Under the pieces are notes generated by a model that saw only the letters and a program-made list of their open reading frames with translations, was not told where the DNA came from and did no database searches. A stretch of 64,000 bases of DNA. Source: Candidatus Hydrogenedentota bacterium. Its GTDB lineage: Bacteria; Hydrogenedentota; Hydrogenedentia; Hydrogenedentales; Hydrogenedentaceae. Shown here in pieces: positions 1,403 through 8,117 of this stretch; position 1 is the first letter of the stretch; the number at the start of each line of letters is the position of its first letter. Location of the stretch: contig JAOAHN010000065.1 in NCBI GenBank assembly GCA_026415215.1, positions 1 through 64,000 of the forward strand, given 5' to 3'. Made by a program: the position numbers and the translations under genes.

Positions 1403-2599
1403 ATGGAAGAGGGGATGTTGTTTACCTCTGAATCTGTTACTGATGGACATCCGGATAAGGTCGCGGATATTATATCCGATACTATCTTGGATTCGATGCT
1501 TGAACAAGACCCGTATAGTAGAGTTGCCTGCGAAACTTTAGTTAAGACTAATTTATGTGTAGTAGCAGGAGAGATAACCTCTAAGGCTAAAGTAGACTTT
1601 ACTTCTCTTATACGCCAGACCATTATAGATATAGGATACGGTCCAGGCTATGTAGGTTTCAATGGTGAGACCTGTTCTATTCTGGTTGCCCTTGAGAAAC
1701 AGTCTCCTGATATAGCGAGGGGAGTGGATGCTACGGAGGGCCATGAACAGGGTGCGGGGGATCAAGGGATGATGTTCGGTTATGCAGTGAGGGAGACACC
1801 CGAACTAATGCCTCTACCTATATCTCTTGCTCATAAACTTGGTTTACAATTGAAGAAGATTCGCAAGGAGAAAGTAATTTCCTGGCTTATGCCGGATGGT
1901 AAGTCCCAGGTAACTGTGGAGTACAGAGATGGAAAACCCTACAGAGTGGATACAGTAGTAGTTTCTAACCAACACTTGCCTCTTTATGGAGGGATGGACC
2001 CTACGCCTCAGGATCTTGAAAGGGAGCACAAAGAGATTGAGGAAGCGATTGTGGAACTTGTAATAAAGCCTGTAATTCCCCAAGAGTTAATTAAGGGCAA
2101 AATTAAATATTTTGTAAATCCTACAGGTAGGTTCGTGACGGGTGGGCCTGTAGGAGACTGTGGTTTGACTGGTAGAAAGATTATAGTAGATACTTATGGT
2201 GGAATGGGAAGGCATGGTGGAGGCGCTTTTAGTGGGAAGGACCCCACAAAAGTAGACAGAAGCGCCGCATACATGGCAAGATATATAGCCAAAAATGTAG
2301 TAGCAGGGGGCTTAGCAGATAAATGTGAGGTTCAATTGGCTTATGCTATTGGTGTGGCACAACCAGTTTCCCTTAATGTTACAACATTTGGAACTGGAAA
2401 AATTGAAGATGGTAAGTTAGCCAAGATATTAAAGGAAGTGTTTGATTGTCGACCTGCTGCTATAATAGAATTCCTTGATTTGAGGAAGCCAATATATAAG
2501 AAAACTGCATGCTATGGGCATTTTGGCAGAGAAGACCAGGGTTTCCGGTGGGAGGATACTGATTCTGTCCCCGTGTTAAGGGAAAAGGTTGGAGTATAA
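1403..2599 (+). CDS. metK: S-adenosylmethionine synthetase
   Basis: 398 residues. Makes S-adenosylmethionine from methionine and ATP. The ATP/methionine-binding signature [13 protein letters not shown] is at residues 7-19, [12 protein letters not shown] near residue 117 and the phosphate-binding [19 protein letters not shown] segment near residue 276. Start is the ATG after an AAAGGG site; the start residue spacing to the first motif fits the family. It sits in the ribosomal operon 47 bp after rplA, too close for a SAM riboswitch of its own. Confidence 0.98.
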
Positions 2600-2790: not shown

Positions 2791-4986
2791 ATGACTGGCT
2801 CCGGTTATGAGGAGAGAGAAGAGTTCTCTGACCTTTTTGGACCTGTGAGTTCACCTTTGGGAGATGAACTAAGAGTTAAAAAGAGCAATGGACACACGGA
2901 GCCGTTCAACCTAAAGAAACTCACATCCTCCATAAAGAATGCTTTTCTGTTCGCTGGGGAAGAGAGTTCCGATTCGGCGTATAGCTTAGCTGTTGCCATA
3001 AAAAATTATTTGAGAAGTGTTTATGGTGCAGGGTCTATAGTTAAAAGTGAGGAGTTATTTAAGACAACTATACATGTTCTTGATGATATGGGATATAGTA
3101 AGGTGTCCCGCGTTTATAAGGAGTATGAGCGGTTAAAAAAACTAAAGAATTTTGTGGAAGAAAGAATTACGGAGGAACTAAATAAAAACGCTGGAAATGA
3201 AGCAATTCTTATAGAATATGATGACTTGATTTTGCATGGTGCAAATAGACTTTTTGAAATATTTAGTGAAGTTTGTGAAGATTCGAATTTGGTTTTGGAT
3301 ATAGCTAAGAGGGGGAAAATCCTAAAAAAGGTGGAAGATTATCTAAAGCTTTTAGTTAATCCAAAGATTGTGCCCTCTGCAAGTTTTATCAGAGAACTTT
3401 GTGTAATGGTTTTGATTGCTGAGGGTTATGAGTTGACCAATAAAGAGAAATTTATTTCTCTGGATTTGGAGAAGATTTTGGAGATTCTTGCGAGTGCGAA
3501 CCAAGATGTCCCACTTACCCCGAAGAGTTCCGCTTTTGCCATTGGAGATGAAGTAAAAAAACAGCTCAGTAAGGACTATGTTTTTTCAAAGAAAGTTATT
3601 GAGGCAGGTGAAAAAGGAAAAATCAGCTTGTTGCATAGTCCTTGTTTTGATAAATTAGATTCAGTTTCTATTCCCATGTATAGCGTATGGGAACTTATAA
3701 AGGGAGAGGAAAAATACATTTTAAGCCCAGATGACTTTTTAGAATGTTCCCTCAAAATTTCTACGGAGATTTGTGATTTTTTTTCAAGCTCCGTGGAATG
3801 GTGGGGTATGAACCTCATATTAGCCCCATTGCTGAAGGGATTTGAGGGTAGTGAATACAAAGATTGGCTCTTAAGGATTAACAAAATTCTATGTAATAAT
3901 TACCATTTTTCTCGGAATAGTTTCCACTACACGATTGATTGGGACTTACCAGAGGGTGTATCCCAACTCTCGGCAAGAGGCGTAAAAGGTAATAATCTTG
4001 GCACTATTTATCCCAATTATTTAACAGATGCTCGGGAACATTTCTTTAACTTCTTGTCAATTTTTGCCTTCCCTAACAAAGATATAAACACCACCTCGCA
4101 TCTAATTTGGAGGTTTGACTCGGAAAGTTCAGAGGTTCCTTCTCTGGCTGTGTGGTCGGTAGTAGCATCTGTGTTAGAAAATGGAAAGTTCCCAATAAAT
4201 TTTAGATTTATCCCATTTTCTACATTAAAAATTATTCCTCAGGTAAGTTTGTATAAAATTACCATCGACCTCGTAAACTTATACCTGGTCAGTGAAAACG
4301 AACAAGATTTCCTCTCTGATTTTTTTGACACCGTATTAATAGTAACGCAGGCGTTTGAAGAATATTTATGTTTTCTTCATAAGTGCAAAAAGATTTTTGG
4401 CTTGACAATTTGGGAAAAACTTCTATCACGCGTGTATGGAAAAAATGCTACAAACTTATCTTTTGAATCTTTTCCAGTTACAGTTTCTCTTGCTGGGCTC
4501 CGAGAGTGTGTTCATCTTATGAGTAAAGAGAAAAAAATGGATGAAATTGAATTCCTTAGGAGTGTTAATAATACTTTGGGAAAGTTAAAGCAAATAATAT
4601 ATAGCGTTAATAAGTTAAAGGGTCTTAATATAAAAATAAAGATGGAAAACGATTCTATTCTTCTAAGGAGTATGTTTAAGAAGACAAGTTTTATTTATCC
4701 TAATTTGTTAGATTATATGGAGAATTTTTCTTCTAAATTAGGATACGAGAGTAAAATCTTACAATTTGGAACTTTTGAAGTGGAGAAGTTAGTTCATATA
4801 TTTAGAATGTTTTTACCTTTAACCCGACACTTTCATTACCCTCTGCAAATTGAGCTTTCAAATGATAGCTCCATTGATGGCAGATTACTCTCGGAAGTAA
4901 TGAACTGCATTTTCTACGAGACGAAAAAGTTTTCGATGGGTAATAGGGGTGAGGGTGTATCTTTTGAAATAGGTTTAGTACCTTAA
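2791..4986 (+). CDS. ATP-cone protein resembling a class III ribonucleotide reductase (NrdD) but without radical residues
   Basis: 731 residues. Residues 28-115 form an ATP-cone (VKKSNGHTEPFNLKKL start, F-x-x-x-K-L-x-x-S-I pattern), the nucleotide-sensing domain of NrdR and ribonucleotide reductases. The remaining ~600 residues follow the order of NrdD: a segment near 245-290 (SSAFAIGDEVKKQLSKDY, then KVIEAGEKGKISLLH) resembles the NrdD stretch that normally ends in HIHDLD; FPNKDINTTSHLIW resembles the active-site-loop strand; VTVSLAGLRECVHLM resembles the family's G-L-x-E segment. The HIHDL motif is degenerate, no Cys is found where the thiyl radical Cys would be, and the C-terminal zinc/glycyl-radical domain is absent. 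Likely a non-catalytic paralogue or regulator. NrdD relation is by eye, moderate confidence. Gene stands alone. Confidence 0.6.
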   Translation: MTGSGYEEREEFSDLFGPVSSPLGDELRVKKSNGHTEPFNLKKLTSSIKNAFLFAGEESSDSAYSLAVAIKNYLRSVYGAGSIVKSEELFKTTIHVLDDMGYSKVSRVYKEYERLKKLKNFVEERITEELNKNAGNEAILIEYDDLILHGANRLFEIFSEVCEDSNLVLDIAKRGKILKKVEDYLKLLVNPKIVPSASFIRELCVMVLIAEGYELTNKEKFISLDLEKILEILASANQDVPLTPKSSAFAIGDEVKKQLSKDYVFSKKVIEAGEKGKISLLHSPCFDKLDSVSIPMYSVWELIKGEEKYILSPDDFLECSLKISTEICDFFSSSVEWWGMNLILAPLLKGFEGSEYKDWLLRINKILCNNYHFSRNSFHYTIDWDLPEGVSQLSARGVKGNNLGTIYPNYLTDAREHFFNFLSIFAFPNKDINTTSHLIWRFDSESSEVPSLAVWSVVASVLENGKFPINFRFIPFSTLKIIPQVSLYKITIDLVNLYLVSENEQDFLSDFFDTVLIVTQAFEEYLCFLHKCKKIFGLTIWEKLLSRVYGKNATNLSFESFPVTVSLAGLRECVHLMSKEKKMDEIEFLRSVNNTLGKLKQIIYSVNKLKGLNIKIKMENDSILLRSMFKKTSFIYPNLLDYMENFSSKLGYESKILQFGTFEVEKLVHIFRMFLPLTRHFHYPLQIELSNDSSIDGRLLSEVMNCIFYETKKFSMGNRGEGVSFEIGLVP

Positions 4987-5076
4987 ATTAGGTGGAGTAA
5001 TATCTAAGTATTCTAATGATGGATATTCTAATGATGGAGCGATTTTTAAAAGGGTAGAAAAGGATTCCTTTTATGG

Positions 5077-6624
5077 TTATTCCCATTCTATTGTGGCTGG
5101 AGGTTTAGTGGTTATGTCGTATAAGACTCTATTTACACCGTGAACTTCATTGCAGATTCTACTCGCCACCTTTTGGAGAAATTCGTGAGGAAATTTGAAC
5201 CAATCTGCAGTCATTGCATCCTCAGAAACTACTGCTCTTAGTGTGCATACTTCTTTGTAGGTTCTTTCATCCCCTTGTACACCTACACTTTTTACTGGGA
5301 GCAAACATACTAATGCTTGCCATATTTTGTCGTATAGGTTTGCCTTTTTAATTTCTTCTATGAAAATTGCATCAGCCTCGCGGAGTGTATTTAGTCTTTC
5401 TTCTGTAATTTCTCCTATACACCGAACTCCTAATCCTGGACCTGGAAATGGGTGACGCTTAATAATTTCGTCTGGGAGACCTAATTGTCTTCCGACTTCC
5501 CTTACTTCATCCTTGAACAGTTCTCTGAGTGGCTCTAAAAGTTTTAAGTTCATTTTTTCTGGTAAACCACCTACATTATGGTGGCTTTTTATTGTTGAGG
5601 AGGGACCGCCTGTCGCCGATACAGATTCTATAACATCTGGGTATAGGGTGCCCTGAGCAAGAAAAGAGAAGTTGCCTAACCTTTTTGCCTCCTCTTCGAA
5701 TATCTCTATGAAAAGGTTGCCTATAGTCTTTCTTTTTTCTTCAGGATCGGTTACCCCTTTCAAGGCGGATAGAAATCGTGTCTTAGCGTCAACTATGTGT
5801 AAGTTTATATGAAAATGGTTTCTGAAGACTTTTTCTACCATTTCTGGTTCGCCTTTGCGAAGTAAACCGTTGTCTACAAAGACGCAATGTAAATTGTCAC
5901 CTATGGCTTTGTAAATGAGAACTGCGGTTACACTTGAATCTACTCCTCCGCTCAGAGCACACAGCACCTTTTCATTTCCTACAATCTCTTTAATTTTCTT
6001 TATCGAATTAGTAATAAAATTTTCCATAGTCCAGGGGGTATTAACATTGCAAATCTTGTGCAGAAAATTGGAGATAATCTTTGTTCCTTCAGGGGTATGG
6101 ACTACCTCAGGATGAAATTGCACACCGTAAAACTTCTTTTCATCGTTGCCAATTATTGCATAAGAGCAGTTTTCAGTGTTTCCTAAGGCTGAGAATCCCG
6201 AAGGGAGTTTGGATACTTGGTCCCCATGGCTCATCCATACTTGGGTAGGGGAGGGTATGTTTTTTAACAAATCTGTGTTCCCCTGATGATTGAGAAAAGC
6301 AATGCCATATTCTTTGTATCGTGCAGGTTCTACCTTACCTCCAAGCATATGAGCAAAGATTTGGGTGCCGTAACATATCCCGAGTATTGGAACACCTAAT
6401 TCAAATAAATCTCTGGATGGTAGTGGTGCGCCAGGCTGGTGCACGCTCGCCGGCCCGCCACTAAAGATAATCCCTGCTAAATTTAGTTTTTTTATCTTTT
6501 CTGTGGGTGTATTGTAGGGTAGGATTATGCTGTATACTCCGCATTCACGAACTCTGCGTGCAATGAGCTTGCTATATTGAGCACCGAAATCCAAAACGAG
6601 TATAACAGGCCCGTTATATTCCAT
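5077..6624 (-). CDS. guaA: GMP synthase (glutamine-hydrolysing)
   Basis: 515 residues. Converts XMP to GMP using glutamine and ATP. The N-terminal class I glutamine amidotransferase domain (residues 8-190) has the nucleophile in GICYGTQ and the His-Glu pair in QFHPEV. The ATP-pyrophosphatase domain begins near 205 with the P-loop LSGGVDSSV, and the C-terminal dimerisation domain ends in the typical KPPATIEWE. Five bases separate it from the upstream guaB, so guaB-guaA form an operon for the last two steps of GMP synthesis. Confidence 0.98.
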
Positions 6625-6629
6625 TTCCT

Positions 6630-8117
<1,488 letters not shown>

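Follow-up and report, generated by a model that had tools for sequence, protein, structure and literature searches.

An NrdD-derived ATP-cone protein of Candidatus Hydrogenedentota: a likely pseudoenzyme and candidate nucleotide sensor

What is left for a protein to do when it has the build of the anaerobic ribonucleotide reductase NrdD, an ATP-cone at its N terminus and none of the residues on which radical chemistry depends? The question is raised by an open reading frame in the window (the whole stretch of 64,000 nucleotides analysed here), which comes from a Candidatus Hydrogenedentota genome of 3.33 Mb that is 93.6% complete. The frame starts with ATG and is uninterrupted (Table 1).

Table 1 Pseudo-NrdD gene of the window, its parts and its neighbours
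Feature	Position	Strand	Description	Basis
metK (S-adenosylmethionine synthetase), presumed from sequence knowledge	1403..2599	+	upstream neighbour	ORF
Pseudo-NrdD gene	2791..4986	+	731 aa; ATP-cone 1, degenerate ATP-cone 2, NrdD-type barrel	ORF, Pfam, family alignments, AlphaFold2, Foldseek
ATP-cone 1	2872..3141	+	residues 28-117; contacts V29, K31, E37, F39, K43; S32 is the R51 equivalent	Pfam, E 9.5e-10
Putative degenerate ATP-cone 2	3226..3435	+	about residues 146-215; contact residues K, R, E lost	alignments A1/A3
Remains of the NrdD 10-stranded barrel (predicted)	3436..4932	+	about residues 216-714; structural motifs retained, catalytic ones gone	Foldseek and motif table
Deletion site of the Cys-radical loop (AKISECCRLSFKL in active relatives)	approx. 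4228..4245	+		alignment A3
Gap between pseudo-NrdD and guaA	4987..5076	+	90 bp; all frames free of a hidden Zn/glycyl domain	
guaA (GMP synthase)	5077..6624	-	convergent neighbour	ORF and neighbourhood comparison
guaB (IMP dehydrogenase)	6630..8102	-	beyond guaA	ORF and neighbourhood comparison

The first-pass annotation had placed the gene between the ribosomal operon and guaAB with no NrdG activase beside it. Both gua genes do lie downstream; the upstream side is refined in that the immediate neighbour is metK, preceded by rplK and rplA. None of the adjacent ORFs inspected is NrdG, which sits with a canonical NrdD on another contig. A C-terminal domain hidden by a frameshift beyond 4986 is ruled out, as nothing is readable in the three forward frames across 4901-5300. 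The guaA gene also adjoins the pseudo-NrdD gene in two loci of the same genus (L025 and L027) and in L055 of family f9, and this common neighbour supports orthology of the window gene with all of them.

Sequence searches with the window protein gave faint signals beyond the first cone. The Pfam NRDD match (residues 485-616, E 2.9e-4) is sub-threshold, at 20.1 bits for a cut-off of 26.2; a search of PDB sequences returned weak NrdR cones alone (E about 0.04), and a contig scan with this protein as the only query gave zero matches. The N-terminal Zn ribbon of NrdR (RRRR-C-C) is absent from the ORF. Structure prediction was more informative: the AlphaFold2 model of the window protein (pLDDT 74, pTM 0.64), for which the underlying alignment included canonical NrdDs, has exclusively NrdDs as its top PDB matches in Foldseek (Thermotoga maritima 4con, E 2.5e-12). 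A model of the family member L080 that was built from pseudo-type rows only (pLDDT 82) also has NrdDs as all of its best matches (9d3x, E 1.1e-22), and its barrel superposes on the NrdD cores of T4 (1h78; TM-score 0.70, rmsd 4.3) and Prevotella copri (8p2s; TM-score 0.71, rmsd 4.8). Both models support a 10-stranded RNR/GRE-type barrel of the NrdD kind, so the ATP-cone and NrdD-like body described at first pass hold up, and alignment and predicted fold together show that the protein shares ancestry with NrdD.

The body as first described also appears to include a second, degenerate ATP-cone that had been overlooked. Two Pfam ATP-cone stretches are found in the relatives L080, L081, L090 and L101, L120 has a cone of the second type only (24.4 bits), and the L080 model contains a second unit of a hairpin and four helices at about residues 164-240. 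The contact residues of this cone are replaced (K to T, R to S and E to A) alike in the family and in active relatives. Canonical NrdDs of Desulfobacterales, Nitrospinota and others (L118-L159) carry the degenerate cone alone at their N termini; with a match just under the cut-off, as in L120, this type of cone may have been overlooked in cone surveys.

We compared the NrdD motifs defined structurally in the P. copri enzyme (PMC11226230) between 19 aligned members of the pseudo family and 18 catalytic-type relatives, among which the NrdDs of Eisenbacteria, UBP2 and Edwardsbacteria are themselves incomplete, having no glycyl segment in cis. The relatives retain the NxN flap, HxHD, both cysteines, loop 2 and the phosphate loop almost without exception. 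For the NxN flap, first-strand Cys, Cys loop and phosphate-loop core, retention is 94-100% in these relatives versus 0-11% in the family, in which the flap and loop 2 are each kept in 0-5% of members and the phosphate-loop core (PAES) in 0-11%. The second Cys, on the first barrel strand, occurs in 0 of 19 members, with none at that column in the window protein. The radical-initiator Cys of the CCR loop is likewise found in 0 of 19, the loop being deleted from the window protein and its family, and the Zn/glycyl-radical domain is absent in cis from both. The HxHD motif has decayed gradually, with the first His present in 89% of members, the second in 53% and the Asp in 26%. The window protein thus retains neither the HxHD motif nor the Cys of the first strand; its NxN flap, phosphate loop and loop 2 are missing too, as are the Cys loop and the Zn/glycyl C terminus. 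Its same-genus homologues share its C-terminal endpoint (725-729 aa). The three losses claimed at first pass, of an HIHDL-type motif, the thiyl-radical Cys and the glycyl-radical/zinc C terminus, are all confirmed within this longer list.

Tandem-cone NrdDs without the glycyl segment occur among the relatives as well (L090, L091, L096, L103-L106, L110-L112 and L117; genomes G100, G101, G103 and G105-G112). These keep the CCR loop and the Zn cysteines, and their glycyl-radical segment is missing or has its Gly changed to Asp. Their genomes contain a separate ORF of 97-225 aa that bears NRDD positions about 526-560, which suggests a split NrdD that draws its glycyl domain from another polypeptide, much as pyruvate formate-lyase has GrcA. 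At one such locus (L111, genome G110, contig C61) the separate glycyl-domain ORF (ITRVTGYFSKVNSWNKGKKAEL) lies just 3' of the truncated NrdD, in the region from 8307 onwards. An Eisenbacteria NrdD (L098, about 2540-2600) reads KVTS-stop-FSRISGWNSGKK: the glycyl Gly has become Ser, an in-frame TAG follows directly and the remainder of the domain is still readable past it; no second NRDD match was found in this 1.7-Mb genome. The glycyl-less NrdDs of L096, L098, L103-L106, L110, L112 and L117 are closely followed by a small glutaredoxin-like ORF (FVKxxCxAC).

For the pseudo family, a glycyl domain supplied in trans, as seen in Eisenbacteria-type genomes, was considered and rejected, because the thiyl Cys is also gone and genomes without a canonical NrdD showed no such fragment. 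At E 1e-3, the only NRDD C-terminal fragment found in trans in the phylum genomes is a 67-aa frame in G058, a genome that has a fragment of canonical NrdD too.

The first-pass annotation had proposed to survey the phylogenetic spread of this architecture and the other reductase genes of the genome. By tblastn against 100 relatives, full-length homologues occur in each of the three genomes of the same genus (31-32% identity) and weaker homologues over the rest of the order, with none in the 32 sampled genomes outside it. Among 68 sampled Candidatus Hydrogenedentota genomes, mostly metagenome-assembled (MAGs), our tally found the pseudo-type gene in 61, including 37 of 38 of high quality. It was not detected in G008, G032, G040, G051, G058, G063 and G064. 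Completeness reaches 90% in just one of these, G032, where NrdR also went undetected, so a single missing contig could explain both absences. Canonical NrdD is rarer (39 of 68 genomes): it accompanies the pseudo-type gene in 36 genomes, and 25 genomes carry the pseudo-type gene without it.

The pseudo-type protein is not the sole reductase where NrdD is absent, a possibility that was rejected when TIGR02505 identified class II NrdJ in 62 of 68 genomes, among them all 25 just mentioned (PF02867, for NrdA/NrdJ, matched in only 9 of 68). NrdR was detected in 62 of 68. Four pseudo-bearing genomes (G038, G044, G046 and G060) have no detectable NrdJ and some have no NrdR; gaps in the MAGs may account for this. 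The window genome itself encodes an active-type NrdD with adjacent NrdG, a cone-less class II NrdJ and a separate NrdR, and its only three proteins with ATP-cones are NrdD, NrdR and pseudo-NrdD. Phylogenetic profiles did not discriminate between candidate partners, because pseudo-NrdD, NrdJ and NrdR are all near-universal in the phylum.

In a maximum-likelihood tree (a quick search without bootstrap), 30 pseudo-type sequences form one clade with support of 100, separate from tandem-cone NrdDs, delta-type NrdDs and the canonical Hydrogenedentota NrdDs, the last of which are distant from it. The branch that leads to the window genus is very long (3.88); besides the tree, the guaA neighbour common to L025, L027 and L055 places it in the family. 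A GTDB-scale scan, from which the best 80 of 459 relatives were kept so that similar dead NrdDs may exist elsewhere, points to the tandem-cone NrdDs of WOR-3/Stahlbacteria (L092, L097 and L101) as the nearest catalytically complete relatives. These are about 39% identical to the family outside the window genus and share with it the order cone 1, cone 2, barrel, the structural motifs GLNE and LNLPRAAY and, in several cases, an nrdR gene directly upstream. Unlike the family, they keep the NxN flap, HxHD, both cysteines, loop 2, the phosphate loop, the Zn cysteines and the radical Gly. Degeneration of NrdD was seen once more in a Syntrophaceae genome (G117), where L145 has no CCR and no HxHD-type motif and has Gln in place of Gly (ITQYF), with its Zn cysteines kept; this case looks independent, and the genome has a second, canonical NrdD.

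Is anything in the protein still under selection? The NrdR cone contacts nucleotides through V48, K50, R51, E56, F58 and K62 (PMC9110341), and these six positions align in exact register with cone 1 of the pseudo family. They are conserved in 32 homologues as V/I (32), K (32), R (29), E (22), F (31) and K (31), and of the six only the Arg equivalent to R51 is missing from the window protein. Mean identity among 18 family members is 0.59 for cone 1, 0.57 for cone 2 and 0.50/0.31/0.35 along the barrel, versus 0.63, 0.54 and 0.78/0.79/0.64 among ten tandem-cone relatives. Conservation in the family is therefore inverted, with the cones above the barrel, the opposite of the active relatives. Identity within the window genus is 0.43-0.50 for cone 1 and 0.05-0.33 for the remaining domains; over the whole protein it is 29-32%, versus 83% for canonical NrdD. 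dN/dS is 0.10-0.15 in five close family pairs with unsaturated dS, three of which have dS above 1.6 and so give rough values.

Taken together, the kept fold (as predicted), the lost catalytic residues and the purifying selection support a pseudoenzyme, in which the focus of selection has shifted off the catalytic barrel and onto the nucleotide-sensing cones. The contact residues of cone 1 support a putative ATP/dATP site as the feature retained. At first pass the protein had been suggested to sense ATP/dATP and regulate something else; its status as a pseudoenzyme and the conserved cone-1 contacts partly support that suggestion.

An ATP/dATP-sensing regulator is the best reading of these data, because the protein is a selected, phylum-conserved pseudoenzyme with retained cone-1 contacts. 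We propose, with moderate confidence, a nucleotide-sensing regulatory pseudoenzyme of dNTP supply that descended from a tandem-ATP-cone NrdD; that it acts as a regulator is probable, and that it regulates DNA-precursor supply specifically is possible. Cone 1 would bind ATP or dATP, and the bound nucleotide would alter the oligomeric state of the protein, as in NrdD and NrdR. Cone 2 may serve as a structural relay and the inert barrel as a present-day scaffold. The output, the weakest step, would be control of dNTP supply through contact with a partner, for which class II NrdJ is the likeliest candidate and NrdR the alternative. We prefer NrdJ because it is the main reductase of the phylum, because cones in the window genome are confined to NrdD, NrdR and pseudo-NrdD and because the gene persists without canonical NrdD; NrdR ranks next because its gene adjoins in several families.

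Class II NrdJ of the type found in this phylum is monomeric, so a barrel-barrel partner is not obvious, and the four pseudo-bearing genomes without detectable NrdJ weaken an exclusive NrdJ role. That the window species has lost the residue matching R51 and that its protein evolves very fast would also fit a drifting function. In its most specific form, in which the phylum converted an anaerobic reductase into a free-standing dATP/ATP-sensing pseudo-RNR that switches the cone-less NrdJ on or off in trans, the proposal is tentative and rather unlikely to hold in full. A cone that acts from a non-catalytic RNR subunit has a precedent in class I NrdB (PMC5794259).

The foremost alternative is that pseudo-NrdD works as a co-factor of NrdR, its cones oligomerizing with the NrdR cone to tune the form of the repressor, with the nrdR-pseudo operon as one regulatory unit. 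The gene had been said to stand alone; this is true of the window and does not hold in general, as nrdR is the immediate upstream neighbour, in the same orientation, in 13 genomes (G005, G006, G009, G013, G019, G020, G021, G024, G028, G036, G044, G050 and G061) from five families, none of them that of the window. NrdR functions through cone oligomerization (PMC9110341) and is widespread in the phylum. In a search with a hand-weighted consensus for paired sites and shuffled sequences as controls, NrdR-box-like pairs preceded nrdR in six of six linked operons tested (shuffle p 0.00-0.02). In the window genus they also preceded canonical NrdD (scores 37, 34 and 34 versus shuffle maxima of 32, 31 and 29). 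Upstream of the window gene (p 0.91), of the unlinked pseudo genes tested and of NrdJ in ten genomes, pairs did not exceed shuffles. Spacing within the best pairs (30, 31 and 33) varies by operon, with several values off the usual 31-32, so we treat the pairs as leads.

The linkage itself appears to be old. nrdR is directly upstream of NrdD in five loci outside the phylum (L092, L097, L101, L102 and L111), and the same order occurs with catalytically intact NrdD in WOR-3/Stahlbacteria; it may therefore be merely inherited. The pseudo gene appears to descend from an nrdR-nrdD operon, and the age of the pair means that linkage is not by itself evidence for a new joint function. With linkage absent from the window genus, the isolated site of the window gene is most simply a derived state. 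The two genes lie apart in most genomes, including that of the window, one genome (G059, 97% complete and 10% contaminated) has the pseudoenzyme with no NrdR detected, and the job would need no barrel. We consider the co-factor role unlikely.

A barrel that has been retained could instead have adopted a new reaction in its cavity, and residues such as H301, D315, R316, N537 and E718 (family level, A4 numbering) are invariant. However, the middle and C-terminal half of the barrel are the least conserved parts of the protein (0.31-0.35), no new motif is evident and the one Cys that is widely conserved (in 26 of 28 sequences outside the genus) is missing from the three genus mates of the window species, which makes a different enzyme improbable. 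More doubtful still is an inactive partner that forms a heterodimer with canonical NrdD and modulates the class III enzyme: common descent, the predicted fold, the dimeric nature of NrdD and the co-occurrence tallied above would suit it, but 25 genomes hold the pseudoenzyme without any canonical NrdD, and the canonical NrdD of Hydrogenedentota belongs to a remote subtype, well across the tree. A pseudogene in decay, or an assembly or frameshift artefact, for which only the very fast evolution of the window genus (branch 3.88) speaks, is contradicted by long intact reading frames in nearly all homologues, the low dN/dS, presence in nearly every high-completeness genome of the phylum and the lack of any hidden domain downstream, and can be set aside.

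We found no description of a class III RNR pseudoenzyme in the open-access full-text literature, and in Hydrogenedentota this dead form of NrdD is commoner than the active one. If the sensing regulator proposed here acts on NrdJ or NrdR, it would show a route of control for a reductase that has no allosteric switch of its own, and would be a natural case in which RNR sensing has parted from RNR chemistry. Several known systems resemble it in part. The repressor NrdR has an ATP-cone with the same K-R-E-F-K contact register and, in 13 genomes, an adjoining gene; it differs in its Zn-ribbon DNA-binding domain, whereas pseudo-NrdD has no ribbon and a large NrdD-type barrel. Betaherpesviruses encode catalytically inactive homologues of the class I large subunit R1, which are of a different class, host and origin and are not ATP-cone sensors in a bacterial nrdR setting. 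In class I NrdB with an ATP-cone (PMC5794259) the cone is likewise on a polypeptide other than the catalytic subunit, but that protein generates the radical, whereas pseudo-NrdD has no radical chemistry and represents an inactive copy of a catalytic subunit. The trypanosomal prozymes, regulatory dead paralogues of enzymes (PMC5201418, PMC3663545), share with pseudo-NrdD a catalytically dead paralogue held by selection; they differ in that their active paralogue partner is proven, whereas canonical NrdD is often absent from genomes with pseudo-NrdD.
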